The position numbers and the translations under genes were made by a program. A model generated the notes under the pieces. It saw only the letters and a list, made by a program, of their open reading frames with translations, did no database searches and was not told the origin of the DNA. Below, piece by piece: positions 11,426-25,367 of a stretch of 47,788 bases of DNA. The stretch lies in NCBI GenBank assembly GCA_018698975.1, contig JABIPQ010000119.1, forward strand, positions 1-47,788, in the 5' to 3' direction. The stretch is from Gammaproteobacteria bacterium. Lineage in GTDB: Bacteria; Pseudomonadota; Gammaproteobacteria; Pseudomonadales; Pseudohongiellaceae. Position 1 is the stretch's first letter; each line of letters begins with the position of its first letter.

Positions 11426-11930
11426 GTTATTTTCCTTAATTTCTTACTTATTCTGCGGAAACATTGGCCAAAAAAAGAGAGAGTATTAATCGTGGTGATC
11501 GTCTTTTTGCTTACCTTTGCTCCCCGCTTTATTGTTTTGGTTTATTGACTACGTTTCCACAGGAGCATAAACCAGCCCGCATAACAGGGCAACTTGGCGG
11601 TAGCAAGGGGCAATAGAATAGACATGAATGTGTCAGTATTATGAAATTAGCCCGCCTTTATTAGGGTAGCCGGTGCGGGGATGGTATTCTTTTGGCAAAC
11701 ATGATTATATGTCTTCCCCCTTTACAAAACGCCATTTTCCGGGGGTAGCAGGGCTTGAGTTCCACTATTTTATGCCTGGTTTACGGCAAGTGGGCACGGC
11801 ATTCAGAAGGAGTTTTTGTGCCTTCTTTTACTGCCGCGGTAATTAGCCCAGAATGAATTAGAATTTCAAGGGTCTTACCCATAGTGGGTAGTTGTTCAAA
11901 CCGAAGCACTTCAAATTACGTATTGGCAGT
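11426..11930. other. Intergenic region between divergent units; likely promoter region of the vWA/MoxR operon
   Basis: About 500 nt without a convincing gene. It must contain promoters for both the minus-strand MBL gene and the plus-strand seven-gene operon. A strong Shine-Dalgarno, AGAAGGAG at 11805-11812, sits five nt ahead of a 12-codon GTG frame (11818-11856), a possible leader peptide. A small hairpin, TACCCA-TAG-TGGGTA, lies at 11876-11890. No convincing -35/-10 pair could be chosen by eye. A TTG at 11892 could extend the next gene by 13 codons, but it sits right behind that hairpin. Confidence 0.5.
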
Positions 11931-14156
11931 ATGATCGAATTTTTCTTCAAATATCCCCGATCAGTATTTAATGACAGCAACTTCATATTCGCCAGCGGTT
12001 GGCCGTTATGGATGATGTTTGGGGTTATTCTTGCCTTTCTGGCCGTTCTGGTCGTGTTGTTTATACGACGGCCGGGCAATATGAACTGGTTGCAGCTCGG
12101 CTCTATCGGTTTTATCCAACTATTAATGCTTGCTGTAGTCATGGTGGTGGTCTGGCAGCCGGCACTGGTATCCGAGCGCCTGCTCAGTGGTGAAAATGCT
12201 GTAGCAATCATGCTCGATACATCCGGAAGCATGACCTTCAATGAGGGCGGGACGACTCGAATGGATCAGGCCCAGTCTTTATTGACCCCGGAATCCCTTG
12301 AAGAAATCGCCGATATTTACACTATCCTGCCTTATGGCTTTTCAGCTACCGCTAATACCCTGGACTCCTTCTCTACCTTGCCCGAACCAGGAGTTGCCAC
12401 CAACCTGGGACAGTCAATTCTACAAACACTGCGCCAGGCTACCGGCGCCTCCCTGGGTGCAGTCATTCTGGTGAGTGACGGCGCAGATAACAGTGGCGCT
12501 ATCAGCCAGGCTGAGATGAGTGAAATTGCTGCTTATGGGGTTCCCGTACACAGTGTTGGTCTAGGCCGCGAAAACATCCCGGAAGACCTCGAGCTCACCG
12601 AGGTCCTGCTCCCTGAAAAAGCCCTCCCTGGCACAACCCTGTCTGCCCGTGTCGGAATACTCCATGACCAGGGTGGCACTGCCAGAATCAAGGTCTATGA
12701 CGGAGACACCTTCTTATCTACAGAAGAAATTGCCCTCAGTGACGGGCAGAATATGACGCTGGCCTTCATTGATATTGAAGTGCCTGAACCTGGTCAGCTG
12801 GACCTGCGTTTTACCCTTGACCCCATCGACAATGAAAGCAATCTGGCAAATAACACACGGGCCCGTGTAGTGGATGTCGAGGAAAGTCGTTACAAGGTTC
12901 TCTATGTGGAAGGCGAGCCGCGCTGGGAATACAAGTTTATGCAGCGCGCCCTGAATGATGATCCCAGTATCCAGCTATCAACTCTGCTAAAGGTCACTCC
13001 CAATAAATATTACCGGCAAGGAATAGAAAGCCCCGAACAGCTGGAAAACGGATTCCCCACTGAGCGAGCCGAGCTGTTTGATTACGATGCCCTGATAATG
13101 GGTAGTCTGAATGCAGCAGAACTGACCAGTGAGCAACAGGAAATGATTCGGGATTTTGTCAGCGAGCGGGGCGGCAGCTTCATGATGCTGGCAGGTCTCA
13201 ATGGTCTTGGCCTGGGCGGCTGGGGTGAAACTGTGGTGAACGAAATACTGCCGTCGCGCCTTAACGCCGAAGAAGCAGCGTTTATCCGTGAAAAGGCGCC
13301 CGTAGCTTTAACGGATAGCGGCCGACTTGCTCCCATGTTGCAATTCAGTGACAGCGAATCGGAAAATGACCGATTGTGGTCTGAACTCCCGGAAGTTGCC
13401 GACTACCAGCAAATTGGTCCTTTACGCCCTGCAGCAACAACTTTACTGGGGGTGAATGTCGAAGGCCGAATTCAGCCTTTGTTAGTCACCCAGCCTTACG
13501 GACGCGGCCAGAGTTATATTCTCGCCACAGGCGGAACCTGGCGCTGGCAAATGAGCCTGCCCGTGGCAGATATGCGGCACGAGACATTCTGGCGTCAACT
13601 CACCAGAGCGCTGGTTGCCAACTCCCCCCGACCTTTTGAGCTTTCAAGCCGCATTGAAAATGAAGAGATTAAAGTCCGTGCCCAGGTGCGGGACCCTGAT
13701 TCCGAAGAAAACCAGGGTCTGGCCATCTCTGCAGTAGTGTCTTCCGAAAATAATGATGTGGTAAGCCTCGAGCTGCAGCCAGTTTCAGGACAGCCAGGTG
13801 TTTATGAAGCGGGTTTCAAACCAGAGCAAACCGGCCTGTACAGTATCGACGCTATCTCCCGTGTCGGAGAAACCCTGGTGAGCTCTTCAACAACTGCAGT
13901 GCGCTACGATCAGGGTCAGGAAATTTTCAATGTACGTCAAAACAAACCTTTACTGGAAAGGGTTGCACAGGTCACCGGTGGACAATACTGGACACCGGAG
14001 CAATGGAATGAAATTCCTGAAGCCATTTCCTATTCCACTGCAGGTATTACAGAACAACAAATCAGTTATTTGTGGGACGCACCGTTCTTTTTTCTCTTGC
14101 TGATACTACTGAAAACCCTCGAGTGGTTATTAAGACGCCACTGGCGGACTATCTAG
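11931..14156 (+). CDS. Membrane vWA / glutamine-amidotransferase-like protein
   Basis: A 741-residue protein read from the ATG at 11931 (the frame is open to a TTG at 11892). It has two N-terminal membrane spans (about 26-45 and 55-77), a periplasm-facing von Willebrand A domain with MIDAS motif D-T-S-G-S (96-100) and VSDGADNSG, then beta-sandwich repeats. A class I amidotransferase-like Rossmann domain follows (VLYVEGEPRWEYKFMQRAL, then MMLAGLNGLGLGGWG), with no obvious catalytic Cys at the nucleophile elbow, and one C-terminal span (APFFFLLLILLKTLEWLL). This build matches COG5426-type proteins found with MoxR and DUF58 genes. MIDAS vWA domains usually bind protein partners through Mg2+. It starts a tight operon; the next gene begins 9 nt later. 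Its role is probably as a membrane anchor or adaptor for the MoxR ATPase, which is inferred from context. Confidence 0.85.
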   Translation: MIEFFFKYPRSVFNDSNFIFASGWPLWMMFGVILAFLAVLVVLFIRRPGNMNWLQLGSIGFIQLLMLAVVMVVVWQPALVSERLLSGENAVAIMLDTSGSMTFNEGGTTRMDQAQSLLTPESLEEIADIYTILPYGFSATANTLDSFSTLPEPGVATNLGQSILQTLRQATGASLGAVILVSDGADNSGAISQAEMSEIAAYGVPVHSVGLGRENIPEDLELTEVLLPEKALPGTTLSARVGILHDQGGTARIKVYDGDTFLSTEEIALSDGQNMTLAFIDIEVPEPGQLDLRFTLDPIDNESNLANNTRARVVDVEESRYKVLYVEGEPRWEYKFMQRALNDDPSIQLSTLLKVTPNKYYRQGIESPEQLENGFPTERAELFDYDALIMGSLNAAELTSEQQEMIRDFVSERGGSFMMLAGLNGLGLGGWGETVVNEILPSRLNAEEAAFIREKAPVALTDSGRLAPMLQFSDSESENDRLWSELPEVADYQQIGPLRPAATTLLGVNVEGRIQPLLVTQPYGRGQSYILATGGTWRWQMSLPVADMRHETFWRQLTRALVANSPRPFELSSRIENEEIKVRAQVRDPDSEENQGLAISAVVSSENNDVVSLELQPVSGQPGVYEAGFKPEQTGLYSIDAISRVGETLVSSSTTAVRYDQGQEIFNVRQNKPLLERVAQVTGGQYWTPEQWNEIPEAISYSTAGITEQQISYLWDAPFFFLLLILLKTLEWLLRRHWRTI

Positions 14157-14165
14157 GAACTGCTG

Positions 14166-15128
14166 GTGACAAATACCACCGCAAACAAAGTGATGAACAA
14201 AGTGATGAACAAACTACAGATCATGTTGCTTCTATTAATAAGCACCATCTTGCTAATACCAAATGCCAACGCCGCTTTATACGTCACTATTGTGCAAGGA
14301 CTGGGTGGCTTACCTGAATATGATGACAAATTTGCCGATCAGGCACAAAAAATTTATGACGCCTCCATCACTCTGGCTGATGCGTCACATGTGACCTCGA
14401 TGGCAGGCGATGATGCAACACGAAGCGCCCTGCTTATTCATTTTCAAAACCTGGCAGAGTCCATGAATGAGGATGATAGAGCGGCTATTTATCTGGTGGG
14501 TCACGGCAGTTATGACGGAGAACAATACAAGTTTAATATTTCAGGACCGGATATCACCGATGCAGATCTGGCTGAAATTCTGGAAAGCTTCCCGGGGCAG
14601 AATCATTTCCTGGTAAACACTTCAAGCACCAGTGGCGCTATTCTCGACGGACTCGAAAGCGACCAGCGTGTCATTATTACAGCCACACGCAATGGCAATG
14701 AAAAAAATGCTACCGAGTTCGGTAATTATTTTGCTGCCGCCCTGGCCAGTGATATTGCAGACATAAATAAAAATAATAATGTCAGCATTCAGGAAGCTTT
14801 CGATTTTGCCGAACGCAGCGTTGCAGAATTTTTTGAATCCTCAGGCAAACTGGCAACGGAGCATCCACAGATTCGAGGTGAAGGCGCAGCAAGTTTCAGT
14901 CTTGCGAGAGTTGAACCGCTCGCAACATCTGATGAGAACCCGCGCATCAATGCTTTTATTAGCAGACGTCTTGAGCTCGATACGGAAATTGAATCACTGC
15001 AATTACGGCGCAATGAATTTTCCAATGTAGAGTATATCCAGAATCTGCAGGCTCTTATTCTGGAGTCAGCCGAGATTAGTGAACAGATAGACAGTTTACG
15101 GGAAGGCACGCAGGCAAATGTTCAATAG
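14166..15128 (+). CDS. Caspase/C13-fold secreted protein with Cys replaced by Ser (pseudo-caspase)
   Basis: A 320-residue protein starting at GTG 14166, supported by TAGGA six nt upstream; ATGs at 14193 and 14205 are alternatives inside a 12-bp direct repeat (AAAGTGATGAAC, 14187-14210). A signal peptide ends at NANA (about residue 36). The body looks like a clan CD peptidase: AAIYLVGHGSYDG, with the dyad His at 113, then HFLVNTSSTSG (148-157), where family members have Cys in the C-x-S-G box. That position is Ser154. Next come RVIITATRNGNEKNATEFG and VSIQEAFDFA, typical for caspase-like and legumain-like proteins. A C-terminal helical stretch (260-315) follows. It is probably catalytically dead or an unusual Ser form. 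It lies between the vWA protein and a metallopeptidase, so it may bind substrate or scaffold. Fold assignment is by motif only. Confidence 0.75.
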   Translation: MTNTTANKVMNKVMNKLQIMLLLLISTILLIPNANAALYVTIVQGLGGLPEYDDKFADQAQKIYDASITLADASHVTSMAGDDATRSALLIHFQNLAESMNEDDRAAIYLVGHGSYDGEQYKFNISGPDITDADLAEILESFPGQNHFLVNTSSTSGAILDGLESDQRVIITATRNGNEKNATEFGNYFAAALASDIADINKNNNVSIQEAFDFAERSVAEFFESSGKLATEHPQIRGEGAASFSLARVEPLATSDENPRINAFISRRLELDTEIESLQLRRNEFSNVEYIQNLQALILESAEISEQIDSLREGTQANVQ

Positions 15129-17493
15129 GCCTAACAACACATATTCTTTTTATGACCTCGCTGCTCCCGTTCTTGCAAGTGTTTCTGTAAGTATTGCCGC
15201 AGAAGTTGCCAGGCCGACTGCTATTGTTCTTCTTGCCGTTCTTCCCTCCATAGCTTCACATTCCACTTTTGCCCGTGACCATCTTTATGGCGCCATAGAT
15301 AACCAAAGCCTGCTCCAGTGTGAAACCCTGAACTGGGCAGGACAGTTACTGGAAGCTGCGGCCTGCTATAGCGGGCTGCACAACCGAGAGCAAACGTCGC
15401 AAATCCGCGCCGAAGCTTTCTGGGCACAAGGCGACCTGCAAAATGCCAACACACAGTTTCAGGATGCCATCAAGCGCTTCCCTGAAGACCCAATGGTAAG
15501 GGTACGTTGGGGTGAGCTTTTTATAGATTCATACCAGTATTCCGAGGCCTATACCCTGTTTGGTGAAGCGCTGGAAATTGATCCTGAAAACTCCTGGGCA
15601 CATATCGGTGCTGCATCCGCCCTCAGCGAAGGTGGCGATCCGGAAGTCCTTAACCAGCATTTAAACAAGGTCATGGAAGAAGGTCTTGCTCCCCATGGCG
15701 CCAAATTGCGCGCCATGATGATGGTGATTCGCTCTCTCTTGCGCCAGGATCGTTATCAGGAAGCCGAGCGATCTCTGGAAGAGGCTTTTGAATTTGCGGA
15801 AGATGAAAGTCTGGCCACCATGGAACTTAAAGCTCTGAGAGCCTCCTATGAATTCATGACGCGTGGCGATTACCAAGTCTGGATTGATGCATCCCTGGAA
15901 GAAAGTCCTGGCTATGGCGATGCCTGGTTCATTCCCGGCTACCATGCCACGATAATTCGACGCTATGAAGAAGCAGGTGACTTTTTTAAGGAAGCCGTCA
16001 CCTTGCAGCCCGACCACTGGGAAGCTCATATTTACCTGGGCCAGAATTACCTGCGCCTTAACGACATCAATGACGCTATCAGGCATGTGAATATTTCTTA
16101 TGATGGCAATGCTTTCAACCCGATGACAGTCAACCTGCTTCGCCTTCTGGACACCTTCACCGAGGACTTTGTGTCCATTACCTATCCGGATCCACCAGAA
16201 GGTCCCTTACCAGAACTTGTCGTCAAGCTGCACAAAGAAGAGCGTGATGTGCTGAAAAATTACGCCCGTAAATTATCGGAAGACAGTATTGATGTGTATA
16301 CCGAGCGTTACCGTTTCGAACCGAAAGAACCCATCATTGTAGAAATTTATCCCAACCATGAAGATTTTGTAGTGCGCTCCATCGGCATGCCCGGCGTGGG
16401 TATTCTTGGTGTCACTTTTGGTTATCTATTTGCCATGGATTCACCCACCGGTCATCCCGATCAGAGATACCATTGGGGAACAACGCTATGGCATGAAATG
16501 GCTCATGTTTTTACCCTAAAGGCCACCGGCAACCTGGTACCACGCTGGTTCAGTGAAGGTATTTCAGTGTATGAAGAATGGCGTACCGGTCCCATACCTG
16601 GCCGAAAAATTCCTACTAATGTTTTGCAGGCCATGGCAGAAGATAAATTCCTCCCTATTGCTGTTCTCGATGATGGCTTTATGCGGCCGAATTATGATGG
16701 GCAGGTGATCGTTTCCTATATGCAGGCCGGCTTGATTTTTGACTTCATCGACCTTGAATACGGCTTCGACAAAATTGTCGACATGCTTTATCTATTTAAC
16801 GAAGACATCACCCCTGTTGCAGCCATTGAGCAGGTTCTGGGAATTAGTGACAGCGAATTCGATCGCCACTTCAAGCAGTTTATTGATATTGAGTACGGAC
16901 CCTTGCTTAATGGTCTGGGCGTCTGGATGGAAGATATGCGTGCCGGCTATGAAGCCTTGCAGGCAGAAAAATGGGAAGAAGCCGCGGCGGCAGCAGAACG
17001 TGCAGTCTTCACTTACCCGGATTACGTAGAAAATGACAGCCCATATATTGTCATGGCACGGGCATACGAAAAACTTGATAACAAGGAAGAAGAATTTCAG
17101 GCTCTGCAAACGTTCTGGCAAAAAGGCGGTTATCTGCCCGCAGCCCTGCTCAGTCTTGCCGATTATTACCTGGAACGTAAGATGAATAGCGAGGCCGAAG
17201 CTGTCCTGATGGATACCAGCTATGCCGACCCCTTTATTGAGGATCTGCATGTAAAACTGGGCGACCTCTATATGGACACACAAAGGCCGGCAAAAGCTTT
17301 GGAAGAATTTGAAGTACTGCTGGCACTGGACCCATTGGATAAAGCCTCAGCCAATTACCGTATTGCCAATGCCTATAATGCGTTGGACAATGATGAAAAA
17401 ACCATGGAATACCTGATGACAGCGCTGGATATTGCACCCCAGTTCAGACCGGCCCAGCAGTTGTTGCTGGAAATGAGCAGGACAAGTAATTAA
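15118..17493 (+). CDS. TPR-containing gluzincin metallopeptidase (peptidase MA-like)
   Basis: A 791-residue protein whose ATG overlaps the end of the previous gene by 11 nt, so the two are probably translationally coupled. A hydrophobic segment (about 33-48, AIVLLAVLPSIASHSTFA) suggests export or an anchor. N-terminal TPR repeats (about 65-340) include YSEAYTLFGEALEIDPENSWAH. The central peptidase domain has H459-E-M-A-H463 and Glu480 in RWFSEGISVYEEW, a complete HExxH...E zinc site of the gluzincin/peptidase_MA type. More TPRs run from about 610 to the end (ALEEFEVLLALDPLDKASA). A zinc protease flanked by TPRs suggests a substrate-recruiting periplasmic enzyme. Unlike its pseudo-caspase neighbour, it keeps every catalytic residue and is probably the working protease of the operon. 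Confidence 0.85.
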   Translation: MFNRPNNTYSFYDLAAPVLASVSVSIAAEVARPTAIVLLAVLPSIASHSTFARDHLYGAIDNQSLLQCETLNWAGQLLEAAACYSGLHNREQTSQIRAEAFWAQGDLQNANTQFQDAIKRFPEDPMVRVRWGELFIDSYQYSEAYTLFGEALEIDPENSWAHIGAASALSEGGDPEVLNQHLNKVMEEGLAPHGAKLRAMMMVIRSLLRQDRYQEAERSLEEAFEFAEDESLATMELKALRASYEFMTRGDYQVWIDASLEESPGYGDAWFIPGYHATIIRRYEEAGDFFKEAVTLQPDHWEAHIYLGQNYLRLNDINDAIRHVNISYDGNAFNPMTVNLLRLLDTFTEDFVSITYPDPPEGPLPELVVKLHKEERDVLKNYARKLSEDSIDVYTERYRFEPKEPIIVEIYPNHEDFVVRSIGMPGVGILGVTFGYLFAMDSPTGHPDQRYHWGTTLWHEMAHVFTLKATGNLVPRWFSEGISVYEEWRTGPIPGRKIPTNVLQAMAEDKFLPIAVLDDGFMRPNYDGQVIVSYMQAGLIFDFIDLEYGFDKIVDMLYLFNEDITPVAAIEQVLGISDSEFDRHFKQFIDIEYGPLLNGLGVWMEDMRAGYEALQAEKWEEAAAAAERAVFTYPDYVENDSPYIVMARAYEKLDNKEEEFQALQTFWQKGGYLPAALLSLADYYLERKMNSEAEAVLMDTSYADPFIEDLHVKLGDLYMDTQRPAKALEEFEVLLALDPLDKASANYRIANAYNALDNDEKTMEYLMTALDIAPQFRPAQQLLLEMSRTSN

Positions 17494-17575: not shown

Positions 17576-18610
17576 ATGAGCGAAGAAGTTAACGAAGCAT
17601 TTGATACCGATGAAACCAGAGAGCTGGTCAAGTCATTCCAGATTGCCAACAGTAAAATCCGCGATCAAATAGCCGGCACTATTATTGGCCAGCAGCACAT
17701 TGTGGATAATCTGCTCATCACATTGTATGTGGGTGGTCATTGTTTAATAACAGGAATGCCCGGCACGGCAAAAACCCTGCTGGTACATACCCTGGCCTCG
17801 GCACTGGGGCTGACCTTTAAACGCATTCAGTTTACCCCTGACCTGATGCCTACTGATATTACCGGCACCGACATGGTTGAAGAAGATCAGAGTACCGGTA
17901 AACGTGAGTGGCGCTTTGTTCCTGGACCAGTGTTTACCAACGTACTGCTGGCCGATGAGATTAACAGGACGCCACCAAAAACCCAGGCAGCTCTGTTAGA
18001 AGCCATGCAGGAAAAAACCGTGACTGTCCGGGGCCAGCTGCATACCCTGGATAAGCCTTTCCTGGTGCTGGCCACACAGAATCCGATTGAACTGGAAGGC
18101 ACCTACCCATTACCGGAAGCGCAACTTGACCGCTTTTTGTTTAACGAGATCCTGGATTACCTGTCACCTGAAGAAGAAGTGGCCGTACTTGACCGCTTTA
18201 CCCGACGTGTTGACATGCCGGAAGTGGAAGCCTGCACCACCAGTGAAGAAATTACCAAGTTCCAATGGCTGGTCCGTCAGGTGCCAATTTCAGAATCTGT
18301 TACCCGCTATGCTGTGGATGTGGTCAGGGCAACTCGCCCATCGGATCCTCTGGCTACTGATATGATTAAAAAATATATCAACTTTGGCTCCAGTATCCGT
18401 GCTTCGATGAATCTGGTGCTGGCCTCCAAAGCCCGCGCCCTTATGGATGGCCGCTACCATGTCACACCGGACGACATTAAATCCCTGGCGCCCCCTATTC
18501 TGCGTCACCGTGTATTACCAAATTATTATGCAGAGTCTGATGGCGTCACTGTCGATGACATTCTCAACAGTATGCTAAATGAGATACCAGCACCGACTGC
18601 AGCTAGCTAA
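17576..18610 (+). CDS. MoxR-family AAA+ ATPase
   Basis: A 344-residue cytoplasmic AAA+ protein. Walker A is G-M-P-G-T-A-K-T (60-67), Walker B is VLLADEIN with Asp127/Glu128, and sensor 1 lies in LATQNPIELEG (Asn169). Then come LPEAQLDRF and a C-terminal AAA lid with GSSIRASMNLVLASKARALM. Length and motifs match the MoxR/AAA_3 group, whose members act as chaperones that mature or remodel partner complexes together with vWA-domain proteins. The gene lies 82 nt after the metallopeptidase and 36 nt before the DUF58 gene, which is the classical MoxR-DUF58 order. It is likely the energy source for the whole operon. A strong call for family; the client protein is unknown. Confidence 0.95.
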   Translation: MSEEVNEAFDTDETRELVKSFQIANSKIRDQIAGTIIGQQHIVDNLLITLYVGGHCLITGMPGTAKTLLVHTLASALGLTFKRIQFTPDLMPTDITGTDMVEEDQSTGKREWRFVPGPVFTNVLLADEINRTPPKTQAALLEAMQEKTVTVRGQLHTLDKPFLVLATQNPIELEGTYPLPEAQLDRFLFNEILDYLSPEEEVAVLDRFTRRVDMPEVEACTTSEEITKFQWLVRQVPISESVTRYAVDVVRATRPSDPLATDMIKKYINFGSSIRASMNLVLASKARALMDGRYHVTPDDIKSLAPPILRHRVLPNYYAESDGVTVDDILNSMLNEIPAPTAAS

Positions 18611-18646: not shown

Positions 18647-19564
18647 ATGAGCCCTGGCAGCACTGAAACGAGAAATGCCCAGACCCGCCTGCTGGATCCC
18701 AGCGTGCTGGCCAGCATGTCGAATCTGGAGCTGGTGGCCAAAGCTGTTGTAGAAGGTTTTGTGAATGGCCTGCACCGCTCACCCAAGTTTGGCTTCAGCC
18801 AGGAGTTTGTTGAGTACCGGGAATACTCGGATGGCGATGACCCACGTTATATCGACTGGAATGTTTTTTCACGCACTGATCGTACCTATATCAAACGCTT
18901 CATGGGCGAAACCAACAGCCACTTGATGCTCTTGCTGGATACCAGTGCCTCAATGGGCTTTGGTAGCGCTAGCACCAGTAAACTGCAATATGGCAAATAT
19001 CTGGGAGCCAGTCTGGCCTATCTCTCATCGCGCCAGCATGATGCTATTGGTGTGATGCTGTTTGACGATGACGTGGTGGATTATCGGCCTCCAGCCAGCA
19101 AGGTAGGCTCCCTGCAAGGGGTCATCCACACACTGGATAAGGCCGAAGCCTCTATGGGCACAGACATTAATAAACCCATGAATCGCTTTCGTGAACATGT
19201 AAAAAAACGCGGCCTCGTTGCTGTCATTTCAGATTTTTACTGTGATGCAGAAGAACTGCTGGAGAATATTCGTCCTCTGGCTATGCACGGGCAGGACGTG
19301 ATTATGTTTCATCTGCTGGATTCTGATGAGCTGGATCCAAAGATCAAGCAATCCACTCTTTACGAAGATATGGAAACCGGCCAGGCCATAGAAGTAGAGC
19401 CTACCTATATGGCAAAAGCCTATCGGGAAAAGATTCAAAACCATATTAAAAATATAGAAGAAGCAGCCAACGGCATTCGCGCTGATCATGTATTGATTAA
19501 CACTGCTGATCCACTGGATAAGGCGCTGCATAATTATTTAACATTCAGAGAGAAGAGGGGTTAA
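18647..19564 (+). CDS. DUF58 vWA-like protein
   Basis: A 305-residue protein with the DUF58 signature YREYSDGDDPRYIDWNVFSRTDR (split here as YREYSDGDDPR at 57-67 and IDWNVFSRT at 69-77) followed by a vWA-like fold with D-T-S-A-S (98-102) and VISDF. No membrane span is visible, so it is probably cytosolic or peripheral. DUF58 proteins almost always lie beside MoxR ATPases and are thought to be their adaptor or client; direct biochemistry is thin. It ends 3 nt before the GTG of the BatA-like gene, so translational coupling is likely. It should recruit MoxR to the membrane vWA proteins coded on either side, though this is inference from neighbourhood. Confidence 0.92.
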   Translation: MSPGSTETRNAQTRLLDPSVLASMSNLELVAKAVVEGFVNGLHRSPKFGFSQEFVEYREYSDGDDPRYIDWNVFSRTDRTYIKRFMGETNSHLMLLLDTSASMGFGSASTSKLQYGKYLGASLAYLSSRQHDAIGVMLFDDDVVDYRPPASKVGSLQGVIHTLDKAEASMGTDINKPMNRFREHVKKRGLVAVISDFYCDAEELLENIRPLAMHGQDVIMFHLLDSDELDPKIKQSTLYEDMETGQAIEVEPTYMAKAYREKIQNHIKNIEEAANGIRADHVLINTADPLDKALHNYLTFREKRG

Positions 19565-19567
19565 TCC

Positions 19568-21580
19568 GTGGCATTGCTAGGTCCCTTATTTCTTCTTGGT
19601 CTTCTCGGCATAGGCCTGCCAATATGGCTGCATCGCCTTGAAACCCAGGTCACAGAACGGGAGCAATTCAGCACCACGATGTTTCTGGAACCTGCCAGGA
19701 AACGCATCCATGTGCAAAGGAAGCTGAAATATTTGCTGCTCATGGCCCTGCGTATTCTCTTTTTCCTGATTCTTGTGCTGGCCTTTGCCCGACCGGTCCT
19801 TTTCTCTCCACCCCAAGCCCTGATAACTGAAGACACCACACATCATGTCATTGTGCTGGATACTTCATTTTCCATGCAGGCTGGCGACAGTTTCGCCACG
19901 GCTTTGCAACGCGTCCAGGATATTATCAATGGGCTGGGCGATGACGAGGTGGCAAGCCTTTATACGGCCTCATCAGGCATTACGACGGTGGCGACTGCCA
20001 CCCCGGACGGCGCTATCCTCATTCAGGCTCTGAGCGGCCTTGCTCCGGACAATGGCAAGCTTGATCTGGGCACTATGGTGACCAGTATGAATACCCTGAT
20101 CGAGGCAAGTCAGGCCAACTTTGTACTGCATTTTATCAGTGATTTCCAACAGACCGGCCAGGCCGTCCGTTTTGCCGACATGATCCCTGATGTCATCAAT
20201 GGCAGACCAGTTCTACTGGAGCTTGAGCGGGTGCAAACAAATAACGCGGCAAACTGGATGGTTGATTCCGTTCTGGTGAGCAATCGTAATGCTGTTGAAG
20301 CCGGCATTCGAGGCTTTGCAACCAATGAGGATTCCTCAGAGCGCACCATCACCCTGAGCATCAATAATATGCTCCAGCAGGAACAACAGGTCACACTCAA
20401 TGGAGGAGGTCTGAGCTTTATAAATTTTGATAACGTTGTCTTTGAGGAAGGTGATAATCGTATTGATATCAGACTGTTACCCAATGATTCTCTGGCCGGT
20501 GATGATATTCGTCACACGGTGTTTGATAACTCACCACCAGCACCGGTGCTATTGCTGACCGAAAATCCGCAATCACTGGGCGTTACCTATATCTCTGCTG
20601 CCTTGGAAACCGCGCCAAGGGGCTATGAAGTGATCACCCAGACTCTTGCTGATCTGGATGCGCGCGTCCTGCAGCGCTATCCCTGGATAGTGATAGAAGA
20701 CATTGGGGCGATAAATGCCAGTCTGGCCACTGCAATCACCGATTATGTAAGTGGCGGTGGCGCAGTGCTGGCCGCGGCAGGCGAATCCAGCCTTGGCCTG
20801 GACTCGGTACCCGTTCTGGACCTGGCAGTGGGCAGTAACCCGATACGCCGCGAAAACCGGAACCCAATTACCATGATAGATAATAGTCACCCTGCCCTGT
20901 CGGAAACCTCAGGCTGGGGCTCGGTAAATATGCAAACTCTGCCAGTGAGTTTAAACGGTGATGAGCGCGTGCTGATTGCCCAGGCAGACAATCGACCGGT
21001 ATTACTGGAAAGCAATATTGGCCGCGGTCGAATAATGCTATTAACCACGGCGCTGGACAATACACTTAGCGACCTACCCGTGAAACCGGTCTTTGTCAGC
21101 TTCATGGCAGAAGCTGCACGCTATCTGTCCAATGAAAACCTGTTAATCCGCGAGCAGATAGCAGAAAGCTTTTTGCAACTATCCCTTGCTGGGGGCTCTT
21201 CAGGTCAGGTCTATGATCCTGATGGCGTAAGTTTGCTGTCACTGTCAGATACCACCCAGGCCCAGGATATTCCTTTGAATAAAACCGGTTATTATCAGGT
21301 CTTTTCCTCTGGAGGCGAGGTTCTGGTTGCCGTGAACCCTGACCAAAGGGAGTCAGATCTCACAATAATGGATGCCCAGGTATTACAAAACTGGCAGAAT
21401 GTGGTGGCAGGTACTGCTAATTCAGGAGAACAGGCTTTAAATTCAGAGTCTGGTGTTGCTGACGAAGACCTGGAAGAAAATGAAATCTGGCGAATTTTCC
21501 TGATTCTGCTTGCACTCATTGTCATTGCGGAATCACTACTGGGTAACCAGCATTTACGCATAAGGACAGGAACCCTATAA
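19568..21580 (+). CDS. BatA-like membrane vWA protein
   Basis: A 670-residue protein with a GTG start at 19568, preceded by GAGGGG. The N-terminus is the BatA/aerotolerance domain (PLFLLGLLGIGLPIWLHRL, span 3-21, then a basic segment and a second span at about 54-74). A vWA domain has MIDAS D-T-S-F-S (98-102) and FISDFQQTG. A class I amidotransferase-like Rossmann region (about 320-500, PVLLLTENPQSLGVTYIS) carries no recognisable nucleophile. A final span (about 643-660) lies near the C-terminus. It shares its overall plan with the first operon gene, so the operon codes for two large membrane vWA/GATase-like subunits, perhaps a heteromer. Bat proteins are linked to oxidative or envelope stress in other bacteria, but their mechanism is unsettled. 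Confidence 0.88.
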   Translation: MALLGPLFLLGLLGIGLPIWLHRLETQVTEREQFSTTMFLEPARKRIHVQRKLKYLLLMALRILFFLILVLAFARPVLFSPPQALITEDTTHHVIVLDTSFSMQAGDSFATALQRVQDIINGLGDDEVASLYTASSGITTVATATPDGAILIQALSGLAPDNGKLDLGTMVTSMNTLIEASQANFVLHFISDFQQTGQAVRFADMIPDVINGRPVLLELERVQTNNAANWMVDSVLVSNRNAVEAGIRGFATNEDSSERTITLSINNMLQQEQQVTLNGGGLSFINFDNVVFEEGDNRIDIRLLPNDSLAGDDIRHTVFDNSPPAPVLLLTENPQSLGVTYISAALETAPRGYEVITQTLADLDARVLQRYPWIVIEDIGAINASLATAITDYVSGGGAVLAAAGESSLGLDSVPVLDLAVGSNPIRRENRNPITMIDNSHPALSETSGWGSVNMQTLPVSLNGDERVLIAQADNRPVLLESNIGRGRIMLLTTALDNTLSDLPVKPVFVSFMAEAARYLSNENLLIREQIAESFLQLSLAGGSSGQVYDPDGVSLLSLSDTTQAQDIPLNKTGYYQVFSSGGEVLVAVNPDQRESDLTIMDAQVLQNWQNVVAGTANSGEQALNSESGVADEDLEENEIWRIFLILLALIVIAESLLGNQHLRIRTGTL

Positions 21581-21653: not shown

Positions 21654-24600
21654 ATGAATACTTCCGATAGACTGGATCAGTATCTCGACGCCTTTAAGCA
21701 GCGTCTTCGAAAACTCACCTTGCTGCAGGGTCTGGCCGCTACTGTAGTAGTGTTGCTGGTGCTGTCTGTTATTGGCGCCTGGTTTTCCACTGAAAGTGGT
21801 TTTGCCGGTGATACTGTTGCCGCTTTCCGTATTATCCTCGTCCTCGCAGTCGCCGCAGTCATCATTACCAGAATCATTCGTCCCCTGCAGGATCTTGATG
21901 CCGATATCAGCAGCAAGGTAGAGGAACGTTCACCGGATTTCGGTGGTCGCATAGAAACCTATATGCAGATGCGGGAAAGCAATAACCCTTTCCGCGACCT
22001 GCTTGCTGAAGATGCCTTGCAAGTCAGTGATAGCCACCCTGTTCGACAGGAAATCAATCAGAGAGATTTTGCCATCGCCAGCGCCATCGGCGGCACTGCC
22101 CTTGTCGTTTTACTTATTCTTCTGGTTGCCGGTCCCGGCATGATGAATTACAGCCTGCGCAATTTATTTGCCGGGTGGGCCTTTGATGATCTTTTACCGC
22201 CGCAATCCATCACTGTTACTCCCGGTGACCAGAGTGTCCGTCTTGGTGCAAACCTCAGAGTAATGGCGGTCATGGAAGGCTTCACTCCTGATGATGCCGT
22301 CATCCATGTGCGTGGAACCGGTGGCCAGTGGCAGGATGTTGAAATGGTAAAAAGCCCGGCGGGCTTTGAGTTCACTTTTTTTTCCCTGCAGGAAAACATG
22401 AACTACTTTATTACTACCACGGGAATTCGCAGTCCTGAATATACAATTCAAGTGGTGGAAGTTCCCGGCATCGAAAGTCTTGAGCTTACTTACAATTATC
22501 CGGAATGGACTGAACGTGATCCGGAAACCTTTGAACTGGGTGATATTCGAACTTTGCCCGATACCCGCATTGAACTGAAAATTACCACAACTGCACCCTT
22601 GCCCGATGGCGAGCTGGTATTGAATGAAACTGGCCAGGGGCTTTCTGTTGATGGTGTTGAGGCCACGACAGAATTTATGGTCACTGATGAAGGCGAATAT
22701 TACATTGCCGCGATTGTCGGTGGTGAGCAAGTACGCCTGAGCGATGACTACTTTATCCGCATTGCCGAGGACGGCAAGCCAGTCATCGAATTCATCCGCC
22801 CTGGTGGCGACTGGAATGCCAGCAATATTGAAGAAGTCACTGCTCGCATTGAAGCCAGTGACGATTTTAATCTGGAAGCATTGACCCTTAAATATTCAGT
22901 CAATGGTGGCGACTGGCAAAGTGTTTCTCTCGCTGAAAATATTCGCGATATCACTGCCGAGCATATTTTTATGCTGGAAGATATTCGCGTACCTGAGGAA
23001 GAAATAGTCGAAACCAATGTTGGTGCTTTCACCGTTGTTACCTCGGAAGAGGAACGCATTCAGAAATCTGAAGATGACTATGTCAACCTGATGATTGGTA
23101 GTGACGACAGCGAAGCCCCGGCCCCCGCAGAAGTCCCACTGGTACCCGGTGACCTGATATCATTCTACGCCGAAGGCAATGACCGCACCCAGACTGTGCG
23201 CACAGATATGTTTTTCATCCAGATACAGTCCTATGCCCGCCGTTATAGCCAGTCACAACTCTCCGGTGGTGGCGGTGGTGGCGGTGGTGGCGGTCCTCAG
23301 GATGAGATTTCTAACCGTCAACGACAAATCATTACTTCCACCTGGAACCTGATTCGTGAACAGGCAGAAGATGCCAGTGCTGGTCAGGTTCAGGTCAACT
23401 CCACCTTGTTATCTGAACTGCAGACAACTCTCGCAGAACAGGCTGCAACATTAGCCCAGCGTACACGTGCCCGTCAGCTGGACAATATGGACGAGCAAAT
23501 TGAGCAATTTGTTACCAATATGGAACAGGCTGTACAAAATATGTATCCAGCGTCTGAGCGTCTGGCGGCAATAGAGCTGGACGAAGCCATTCAGCCAGCC
23601 CAGGAAGCACTGCAACATCTGCTGCGTGCGGAAGCAGTTTTCAATGAGTTCCAGGTCAACAACCAGCAAGGCGGTGGCGGTGGCGGCGGTGGTGGCCGCG
23701 CGCAACAGGATCTGGCAGAAATGTTCGAGCTGGAAATGGACCTTGAACTTAACCAATATGAAACCGGTAGCAATGCCTCGCCTCAGGCCCAGCAAGCCGA
23801 AGAAGAAGACATCATGGATCAGCTGGACGAGCTGTCACGCCGTCAGCAACAGCTGGCCAATAACCTGCGTAACGAACAGCAAATTTCTGAAGCGCAGCGT
23901 TATCAGCAGGAAATGCTGAGGCGCGAAGCCCAGGAATTGCAGGATCGTCTGGAAGAGTTGCAGCAGCAGCGCGAAAGCCTGCAGCGTGGACAGGGACAAC
24001 AGACTTCCCAAAACCAGCCCCCACAAGGCGAGCAATCTGGACAGCAAGGTCAACAAGGTGGGCAGCCCGGACAACCAGGGCAACAGGGCCAGCAGTCCAA
24101 TCAGGAAGGCCAGCAAGGCGAACAACAGGGTGAGCAAGTTGCACAAAGCGAACTGCAACGGCGGCTGGACAGTGCCATTCGCGCCATGGAACAAAGTGCC
24201 GAGGCAATGCGCAACAATGGCAGCGCCGAAGAGCGCCAACAAGCTGCGGATGAAGCCGGACGACAACTGGAAGGTGCCCGTGAACAAATAGCGGCTGATC
24301 AGCTGGCAGACATGCAATCTTCGTTCAGTAATATGGCTGACCAGGCTGAGCGCATGCTCAGGGAACAACAGCGCCAGGAACAGGTCCTGGAACAAGCCAT
24401 GGCGAAAGCGGTTGAGGAAAGAGAATCTGGTGAAGATCCAAACAGTCGCGGTATGGAGCTGCAGGAAGAATGGCAACTGGCGCGCGAAAAGGCAGAACTG
24501 GCAGCGGATCTTTCCAGTTTGCAGGAACAGATGCTCAGCTCCATGCAACGTTTTGGTGACGAGGTCCCCAATGCCTCAAGAGAATTACAGCAAGCCAACC

Positions 24601-25367
24601 AGGAAATCGTGGAAAGTGAGCTGGAACAGGCCCTTACCAATGCCGGCCTGTACATTGATGCCGGTTATGCACTTTATATTGCTGGCAACGAAAGTGCTGT
24701 AACCGCTGAAATGCGCAAGCTGGCGGATTCATTGGACGATGCTCAGGAAATGGTATTAACACAAGGTGCCCCTGGCACGTCTGATCTGGAAGTTGCCCAG
24801 CGACAGGCTCAGGCCCTGCGCGCTCAGCTACAGGAACAGCTGGCACAAAACCCTCAGCCTGGACAGTCAGGGCAAGAAGGTCAGGAAGGACAGCAAGGTC
24901 AGCAGAATCAGCAGGGACAACAAGGCCAGCAGGAAGGTCAGCAACAGGGCGGTGGTAATTCAGGGGGTGATCGTTTCGCCCTTGGCCCCCGCTTCGGAGC
25001 CTGGAATGGCGTGGATCCACTTAATAATGGCCCAATAGATTTACCCGACCAGTTCTATGGCAATCTTGATCAGTTTACTGACATCGCCAGGGATGCTGTG
25101 CAGGATCTGGAACTCAACACTGAAGAGCTGGCCCAGATGCTTGACTGGATCCGACAGCTGGAAGCCACGCGCCTGAATCGCAACGAAGCAATTCTCGCCG
25201 GCGAGTACAATGACATGCTGGCTTTAATTGAGCAGCTGGAAGTTGGCCTGCAACTGGATAACGATAGCAATAACCCCAACAATGTGCGTACAGCCACTCA
25301 AGATCTTATTCCCGATGAATACAAGGAATCTGTGGCGGAGTATTTCCGGCGTCTAAGCAGGGAATAA
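21654..25367 (+). CDS. DUF4175-like giant membrane protein with Gly runs and Gln/Gly-rich segments
   Basis: A 1237-residue protein with three N-terminal spans (about 25-44, 56-74 and 139-160) and then an Ig-like beta region (about 185-510). A long helical coiled-coil part follows, with ten Gly in a row coded at 23265-23294, nine Gly at 23670-23696, and two low-complexity Gln/Gly segments (about 23980-24140 and 24850-24960) made of GQQ, GQPGQ and EGQQ units that resemble collagen-like linkers. The overall plan matches DUF4175/TIGR02302 proteins, which end MoxR-DUF58-vWA operons in Alpha- and Gammaproteobacteria. The flexible linkers suggest an extended periplasmic stalk. Simple repeats at DNA level make it prone to length changes and assembly error. 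It is the last gene, followed by a heptamer repeat and a terminator. Function unknown. Confidence 0.85.
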   Translation: MNTSDRLDQYLDAFKQRLRKLTLLQGLAATVVVLLVLSVIGAWFSTESGFAGDTVAAFRIILVLAVAAVIITRIIRPLQDLDADISSKVEERSPDFGGRIETYMQMRESNNPFRDLLAEDALQVSDSHPVRQEINQRDFAIASAIGGTALVVLLILLVAGPGMMNYSLRNLFAGWAFDDLLPPQSITVTPGDQSVRLGANLRVMAVMEGFTPDDAVIHVRGTGGQWQDVEMVKSPAGFEFTFFSLQENMNYFITTTGIRSPEYTIQVVEVPGIESLELTYNYPEWTERDPETFELGDIRTLPDTRIELKITTTAPLPDGELVLNETGQGLSVDGVEATTEFMVTDEGEYYIAAIVGGEQVRLSDDYFIRIAEDGKPVIEFIRPGGDWNASNIEEVTARIEASDDFNLEALTLKYSVNGGDWQSVSLAENIRDITAEHIFMLEDIRVPEEEIVETNVGAFTVVTSEEERIQKSEDDYVNLMIGSDDSEAPAPAEVPLVPGDLISFYAEGNDRTQTVRTDMFFIQIQSYARRYSQSQLSGGGGGGGGGGPQDEISNRQRQIITSTWNLIREQAEDASAGQVQVNSTLLSELQTTLAEQAATLAQRTRARQLDNMDEQIEQFVTNMEQAVQNMYPASERLAAIELDEAIQPAQEALQHLLRAEAVFNEFQVNNQQGGGGGGGGGRAQQDLAEMFELEMDLELNQYETGSNASPQAQQAEEEDIMDQLDELSRRQQQLANNLRNEQQISEAQRYQQEMLRREAQELQDRLEELQQQRESLQRGQGQQTSQNQPPQGEQSGQQGQQGGQPGQPGQQGQQSNQEGQQGEQQGEQVAQSELQRRLDSAIRAMEQSAEAMRNNGSAEERQQAADEAGRQLEGAREQIAADQLADMQSSFSNMADQAERMLREQQRQEQVLEQAMAKAVEERESGEDPNSRGMELQEEWQLAREKAELAADLSSLQEQMLSSMQRFGDEVPNASRELQQANQEIVESELEQALTNAGLYIDAGYALYIAGNESAVTAEMRKLADSLDDAQEMVLTQGAPGTSDLEVAQRQAQALRAQLQEQLAQNPQPGQSGQEGQEGQQGQQNQQGQQGQQEGQQQGGGNSGGDRFALGPRFGAWNGVDPLNNGPIDLPDQFYGNLDQFTDIARDAVQDLELNTEELAQMLDWIRQLEATRLNRNEAILAGEYNDMLALIEQLEVGLQLDNDSNNPNNVRTATQDLIPDEYKESVAEYFRRLSRE

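Follow-up and report, generated by a model that had tools for sequence, protein, structure and literature searches.

A caspase-fold protein with serine at the nucleophile site: a putative hydrolase encoded in a MoxR–vWA gene cassette of Gammaproteobacteria

What is a protein of the caspase–legumain type doing with serine where the catalytic cysteine should be? The question is raised by a gene at 14166..15128 (+ strand, as for all features below) of the window, by which we mean the whole stretch of 47,788 nucleotides analysed here. A first-pass annotation had pointed out the exchange, and had suggested either a binding or regulatory pseudoprotease, working beside an intact metallopeptidase, or an unusual serine protease. 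We have approached the problem by computing the predicted fold of the product, the position of its dyad, the conservation of both dyad residues and the make-up of the surrounding gene cassette. The best reading, to which we give a probability of about one half, is that the protein is a Ser–His hydrolase of caspase fold, with a swapped nucleophile, that acts in the periplasm.

The gene product and its predicted fold

Translation from the GTG at 14166 gives a C13-like (caspase/legumain fold) protein of 320 amino acids, in which VGHGS occupies residues 111–115 (hence His113), HFLVN begins at residue 147 and the nucleophile box reads N151-T-S-S154-T-S-G157. The residue numbers of the first-pass annotation are therefore right for this start, and the two segments that it quoted, VIITATRNGNEK and SIQEAFDFA, both stand in the translation as written. 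The true start may instead be the ATG at 14193 or 14205, because in the same-genus homologues L007 and L008 the residues MNK immediately precede the hydrophobic stretch, where the window itself carries MNKV as a short tandem repeat. Residues 1–36 (14166..14273) form a presumed Sec signal peptide, with the hydrophobic stretch LQIMLLLLISTILLI and a probable cleavage site at LLIPNANA/A. When stop-to-stop frames were compared, every family row holding its own start had a similar signal-peptide-like stretch (best 15-residue Kyte–Doolittle mean 1.40 to 3.03; L024 entered this comparison without its start). Judged by these N-termini, the protein is apparently exported to the periplasm.

Four conserved boxes follow, the first being the dyad histidine with its flanking glycines, G112-H113-G114 (14499..14507). 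After the His loop comes a family box, K122-F-N124-I-S-G127-P-D129 (14529..14552), whose N124, G127 and D129 are invariant in 65 aligned family rows. The nucleophile box (14616..14636) has Ser154, encoded by AGC at 14625–14627, in place of cysteine. Beyond it lies T174-R175-N-G-N-E179 (14685..14702), with T in 65/65 rows, R in 60/65 and E in 64/65, presumed to lie on the S1 side of the pocket. An EF-hand-like loop, discussed below, and a helical hairpin near the C-terminus (model residues 223–275; 14940..15098) complete the predicted layout. Ten rows of the genus labelled g8 (L016, L017, L019–L023 and L026–L028) are longer by 7 to 24 residues in the segment that joins the nucleophile to the T-R box, presumably at roughly the position of the activation linker of caspases.

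An AlphaFold2 model built from 59 aligned rows has a mean pLDDT of 88.3 and a pTM of 0.82, and the blocks around the histidine and the serine average 93 and 90. The best Foldseek match in the PDB was to legumain (4nok, E 1.3e-8), and VIA-align placed legumain (4nol) highest (Z 21.2, rmsd 2.3 A over 193 residues), followed by Arabidopsis metacaspase-4 (Z 19.7), GPI transamidase (Z 18.0) and caspase-7 (Z 17.2); most of these alignments leave out the C-terminal hairpin. Given the confidence of the model and these matches, the caspase–haemoglobinase fold of clan CD is well supported for the predicted structure, and the first-pass proposal of a caspase-like fold, which another fold would have overturned, is borne out. 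A single-sequence search of solved structures found nothing convincing (best E 0.58), and an NCBIfam scan offered a single caspase hit, a weak one (16.6 bits, with the cut-off at 140). The Pfam model Peptidase_C13 (PF01650) was matched just above its cut-off (26.5 bits against 22.8).

Does Ser154 really occupy the nucleophile position? When profiles of 27 rows each, one of the Ser family and one of Cys C13 proteins, are aligned with each other (99.1% probability, E 4.3e-19), NTSSTSG falls on ISACYSG; the Cys C13 profile itself finds human legumain (E 5.8e-10), and its Cys box falls on legumain's EACESG. A second route leads to metacaspase-4: the family profile matches 6w8s (E 9.4e-6), with the serine on the cysteine of DSCHSG, and also the C139A mutant 6w8r (E 6.9e-6). 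By both routes of profile comparison, Ser154 is at the clan CD nucleophile position.

Conservation and origin of the His–Ser pair

The window's protein has a homologue in all 59 genomes of its taxonomic family (its own included) and in one of 36 other genomes of the order. Among 61 distinct aligned rows (the window and 60 others), His113 and each of the GHG glycines are present in all, and Ser154 in 60; L001–L004 and L006 duplicate L007, L008, L011, L010 and the window and were removed beforehand, and the fragments L024 and L047 are counted in the 61 but were left out of the family alignment (A1). A class-wide search gave matches in 47/369 genomes, seven of which, the window's own included, hold full-length family members (E values up to 2.9e-59, followed by a gap to 5.1e-13); the six further members all have both His and Ser (6/6; L133 and L136 duplicate L069 and L070). 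In a phylum sample, 18/398 genomes matched at 1e-8, the only strong match being the window's own and the others being Cys proteins. A homologue with VGHGS and VDASSAS (Ser 1/1) is carried on a plasmid of Gemmatirosa kalamazoonensis (phylum Gemmatimonadota); its gene (L169:10196-12711) seems to be split over two frames, by a real frameshift or a sequence error. The family thus comes to 68 distinct members, 67 of them in the window's class and the other the Gemmatimonadota plasmid copy, which is absent from the trees. Among these, His113 is present in 68 and Ser154 in 67, with Asn in one, and Cys, Ala, Gly and Thr in none. The question of whether homologues mostly keep Cys, on which the first-pass annotation had made its interpretation depend, is thus answered in favour of serine; Ser in 67/68 homologues is more than chance.

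The single Asn row (L056:3755-4675) departs from the window's protein at T152 (Met) and S156 (Gly) as well, but keeps the histidine, and is a candidate degenerate member. In L014 (G018:C9:294942-295865) the matched stretch includes one TAA, probably the gene's own stop, as the frame ends just before the end of the match.

This constancy is seen against considerable divergence elsewhere, pairwise identity among family rows falling to 20% (median 32%). Parsimony on a tree of 65 family rows, with position 154's own column kept in the trees, counts 23 codon changes but only one amino-acid change at position 154 (24 and 0 at position 113), whereas the median column has 12 changes and the adjacent residues 151, 152, 153 and 155 have 8–10 each; Ser154 is among 21/274 columns with at most one change. 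Its codons are AGY in 59 rows, TCN in five and AAT in one, with at least four switches between AGY and TCN that have serine at both ends. Strong constraint on this site is therefore supported; the first-pass annotation had surmised selection on the fold. Gly112 and Gly114 are likewise invariant in the 65 rows, while the glycine after S156 is kept in 29/65.

A PF01650 search at E 1e-4 detected 22/274 genomes of the class and missed the window's own, so that the Ser family is borderline for this model. With the limit set at E 0.01, 15/59 family rows matched and the Gemmatirosa frame did not.

When and how often did the exchange occur? When 65 Ser rows and 43 Cys (C13/C14) rows are placed in one tree, all the Ser rows lie on one side of a branch (SH-aLRT 95), so that one Cys/Ser change suffices. 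The tree shows grouping, not direction or date, because long branches meet (the program gave a warning) and the Cys rows had been pre-selected: the outgroup was chosen by a pattern requiring Cys in the box (43/53 such rows were used), and 'all Cys', both in the 27-row Cys C13 alignment (A2) and in the tree, thus holds by construction. Without this filter, 66 rows from outside the family (some being the same gene fetched twice) had Cys in 58, a gap in six, Pro in one (the second repeat of L135) and an apparent Ser in L079, an alignment slip in a protein whose true box is DSCHSG. Most simply, then, the clan CD nucleophile would have changed from Cys to Ser once, in the ancestor of the family, and have been kept since. 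A good protease can result from such a change: TEV protease given a serine nucleophile is reported to have lost activity about 10^4-fold and to have regained near-wild-type activity after ten rounds of directed evolution (PMC4576821).

Two simpler accounts of the serine may be considered at this point. One is a recent local loss, a sequencing error or a chance resemblance, for which it might be said that a single base separates the AGY codons of Ser from the TGY codons of Cys; it is refuted by Ser in 67/68 homologues (the other having Asn) and by the single 65-row group on the tree, and we give it almost no weight. The other is that the oxidising periplasm drove cysteine out of the family. In its favour, the domain stretch is Cys-free in 64/67 Ser-family rows; it is weakened, however, by the finding that several of 19 Cys C13 relatives, with two Cys each in the domain, have (by eye) export or lipoprotein-like N-termini, so that export alone fails to explain the swap.

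The gene cassette and the EF-hand-like loop

The gene is the second of a group of seven. It is preceded by a gene for a vWA-like protein (11892..14156), recognized by neighbourhood comparison and by vWA matches below cut-off, in which DxSxS is kept (18/18 rows). It is followed, with an overlap of 11 bases in the listed ORF, by a gene for a TPR protein with a Peptidase_MA_2 domain (15118..17493; HEMAH...SEG). Further downstream are genes identified by Pfam and neighbourhood comparison for a MoxR-type AAA+ ATPase (AAA_3; 17576..18610), a DUF58 protein (18647..19564) and a BatA/two-anchor vWA protein (19568..21580; also by NCBIfam), and finally one for a Q/G-rich protein of 1237 amino acids (21654..25367), which gave no Pfam match at E 0.01 and which we take to be DUF4175-like. 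That an intact metallopeptidase gene lies alongside, as claimed at first pass, agrees with the Pfam match and with the retention of HExxH and SEG in 18/18 rows.

In 20 wide loci, picked by us as representatives, the order vWA – Ser protein – TPR-metallopeptidase is invariable (20/20); MoxR and DUF58 genes come next in 19/20 (L157 ends with its contig) and BatA in 18/20, and a large seventh gene lies at one or other end of the cassette in 18/20. Gemmatirosa kalamazoonensis KBS708 has all seven genes in the same order as the window. In L146–L148, L150–L152, L160 and L161 the seventh gene is upstream of the vWA gene, not at the end, and in L146–L152, L160 and L161 the frames for the TPR-metallopeptidase and MoxR lie about 0.8–0.95 kb apart. 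With the threshold at E 1e-30, the vWA partner was found in 7/369 genomes of the class, exactly the seven that have the Ser protein. From the constant gene order and this co-occurrence, the Ser protein is a fixed part of the cassette wherever this was looked for. Because nearly all relatives examined retain both the serine and the histidine that partners it, within the same gene cluster, the Ser form looks like a long-maintained design and not a broken gene. The possibility that the cassette is a known defence system was rejected, as a PADLOC scan of the seven proteins named no system and gave only weak MoxR matches (E 2.4e-4 to 4.5e-3); a search of a phage collection gave no match.

Residues 199–210 (DINKNNNVSIQE; D199-I-N-K-N-N-N-V-S-I-Q-E210, 14760..14795) fit an EF-hand loop. 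D199 and E210 are invariant, the pattern D-x-[DNS]-x-[DNSG]-x-x-[ILVM]-[STAD]-x-x-E is found throughout the family rows (65/65), and the corresponding residues of the Gemmatirosa frame are DLDKDGGVSLLE. In the model the loop lies between helices 149–156 and 172–189, with a short strand at 169–171 (model numbering), the helix–loop–strand–helix order of an EF-hand, and it is therefore a putative calcium site. SIQEAFDFA, which had been cited as part of an intact clan CD pattern, is indeed present, but it is not a general clan CD signature: its start forms the end of this loop. An EF-hand-like loop was also found in 4/60 Cys-box proteins scanned (L078, L089, L083 and L137; three were checked in register), one of which (L083) has a Pfam EF-hand_5 match at E 0.0016, below its cut-off. 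The scan used the first Cys box of each protein, which was the wrong one in L115, and the 27 rows of the Cys C13 alignment were rescanned; none of the 27 had the loop.

Possible catalysis, its alternatives and known relatives

If the Ser protein is an enzyme, how might it work? Its signal peptide would send it to the periplasm, where it would fold in the manner of legumain, the EF-hand-like loop lying between two helices after the fifth strand and perhaps holding calcium. Ser154, activated by His113, would then attack a peptide or ester carbonyl, and the oxyanion hole would be built from main-chain NH groups, those of Gly114 and of the nucleophile itself. The substrate may be an envelope protein, on which the enzyme and the TPR-metallopeptidase would act together within a membrane system that the MoxR ATPase operates with its vWA partners; we infer this partnership from the fixed nature of the cassette. 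Most likely, in other words, we are dealing with a putative hydrolase or acyl transferase that works beside a metallopeptidase under a MoxR–vWA membrane system.

Alternatively, catalysis may have been lost and the old groove may bind a peptide or a partner (such as the TPR-metallopeptidase or the vWA proteins), Ser154 and His113 being kept for a ligand or for loop stability. Several published examples lend weight to this idea: Trypanosoma brucei MCA4, with a substituted dyad, is reported to be an inactive pseudopeptidase (PMC6657590), about 70% of the caspase domains fused as effectors to vWA proteins in MoxR–vWA ternary systems are reported inactive (PMC7159879), conserved clades of pseudo-orthocaspases with YS or YN exist (PMC6426788), and dyads that keep His but not Cys (HA, HP, HG) have been reported (PMC7475262, PMC6426788). 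Moreover, the adjoining metallopeptidase is intact and could supply the activity, and the Asn of L056, the patchy conservation of the glycine after S156 and the absence of the window's own genome from the PF01650 search results all sit awkwardly with an enzyme. What inclines us towards catalysis is that the prokaryotic substituted dyads described in these sources are mostly YS, YN, YA and FS, in which His is lost (QC, HA, HP and HG also occur; PMC6426788, PMC7475262), whereas the Ser family keeps its His in every member examined; both GHG glycines are also retained in the 61 and 65 rows counted, and Ser154 has never given way to Ala, Gly, Thr or Cys. A conserved pseudoprotease is the main competitor, and one that we judge to fall a little short of an even chance. 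A different Ser–His chemistry, with the protein as an esterase, deacylase or transacylase of lipids, glycans or lipoproteins, could be accommodated by its apparent export, by boxes (K122–D129 and T174–E179) unlike the conserved columns of the Cys C13 rows, and by fold relatives that include GPI transamidase and asparaginyl ligases. The best 50 rows of each fold search are nevertheless all peptidases or peptide transferases, and no lipid- or sugar-specific features were seen, so we consider this unlikely.

To our knowledge, clan CD in MEROPS holds only cysteine peptidases. We tentatively suggest, at a little less than even odds, that the Ser family is the first natural lineage of serine peptidases (or acyl transferases) in this clan, characterized by a His–Ser dyad and a calcium-type loop, exported, tied to a MoxR–vWA membrane machine beside a metallopeptidase, and present in at least two phyla. 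A Cys/Ser switch is known from the PA clan; a lineage that kept its His while swapping its nucleophile would be a natural instance in another fold. If active, the Ser protein would represent a new catalytic type for the caspase fold; if inactive, it would be an unusually constrained pseudoprotease, with likely partners named by its operon. In either event it offers a concrete lead on the targets of MoxR–DUF58–BatA envelope operons. Fold and family are known, but in the open-licence literature we found no description of a clan CD peptidase with serine, of a legumain from bacteria or of such a cassette, nor of a family in which a universal His–Ser form, an EF-hand-like loop and a fixed MoxR cassette go together, which is weak evidence that none exists.

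The closest comparison is with legumain and peptidase family C13 (PF01650), with which the window's protein shares the fold (at a Z of 21.2), the HG box and the nucleophile turn, besides passing the Pfam cut-off. It has the features of clan CD at large, a caspase–haemoglobinase fold in the model and a His in the HG motif (68/68), and differs from C13 cysteine peptidases in its serine (the catalytic Cys being found in 0/68), its EF-hand-like loop and its other conserved boxes. The Cys p20 proteins L078, L089 and L083 (Pfam Peptidase_C14) have the HG box and the loop in register with those of the Ser protein, but their nucleophile is Cys, and the loop lies 17 to 47 residues farther from it along the chain.

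With the pseudo-orthocaspases of cyanobacteria and Rhizobiales the family has in common the caspase fold, frequent Ser at the Cys position and the formation of conserved clades, and if a substituted His–Cys dyad is taken as the mark of that group, p20 membership being left aside, its His–Ser dyad in a caspase fold would bring it in; as described in the sections of the papers cited here, however, pseudo-orthocaspases mostly lack the His (YS, YN, YA, FS) and are of the C14 p20 type, and no such cassette is mentioned there (PMC6426788, PMC7475262). The replacement of Cys by Ser is reported also for T. brucei MCA4 (PMC7475262, PMC6657590), although the accounts consulted disagree on how HS and YS are to be assigned to MCA1 and MCA4 (PMC6657590, PMC6426788); MCA4 is a eukaryotic metacaspase, reported to be inactive (PMC6657590), and a single protein, whereas the serine here is a family-wide state. 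Finally, the MoxR–vWA ternary conflict systems are described as combining MoxR and vWA proteins with caspase-like and sometimes metallopeptidase parts (PMC7159879), as does the present cassette. The Pfam and NCBIfam matches of the cassette genes, from general and not component-specific models, name no VMAP, STAND/iSTAND, FtsH or propeller protein. In contrast to those systems, the caspase-fold and metallopeptidase parts described here are separate proteins, apparently exported, and encoded in a fixed order with DUF58 and BatA.
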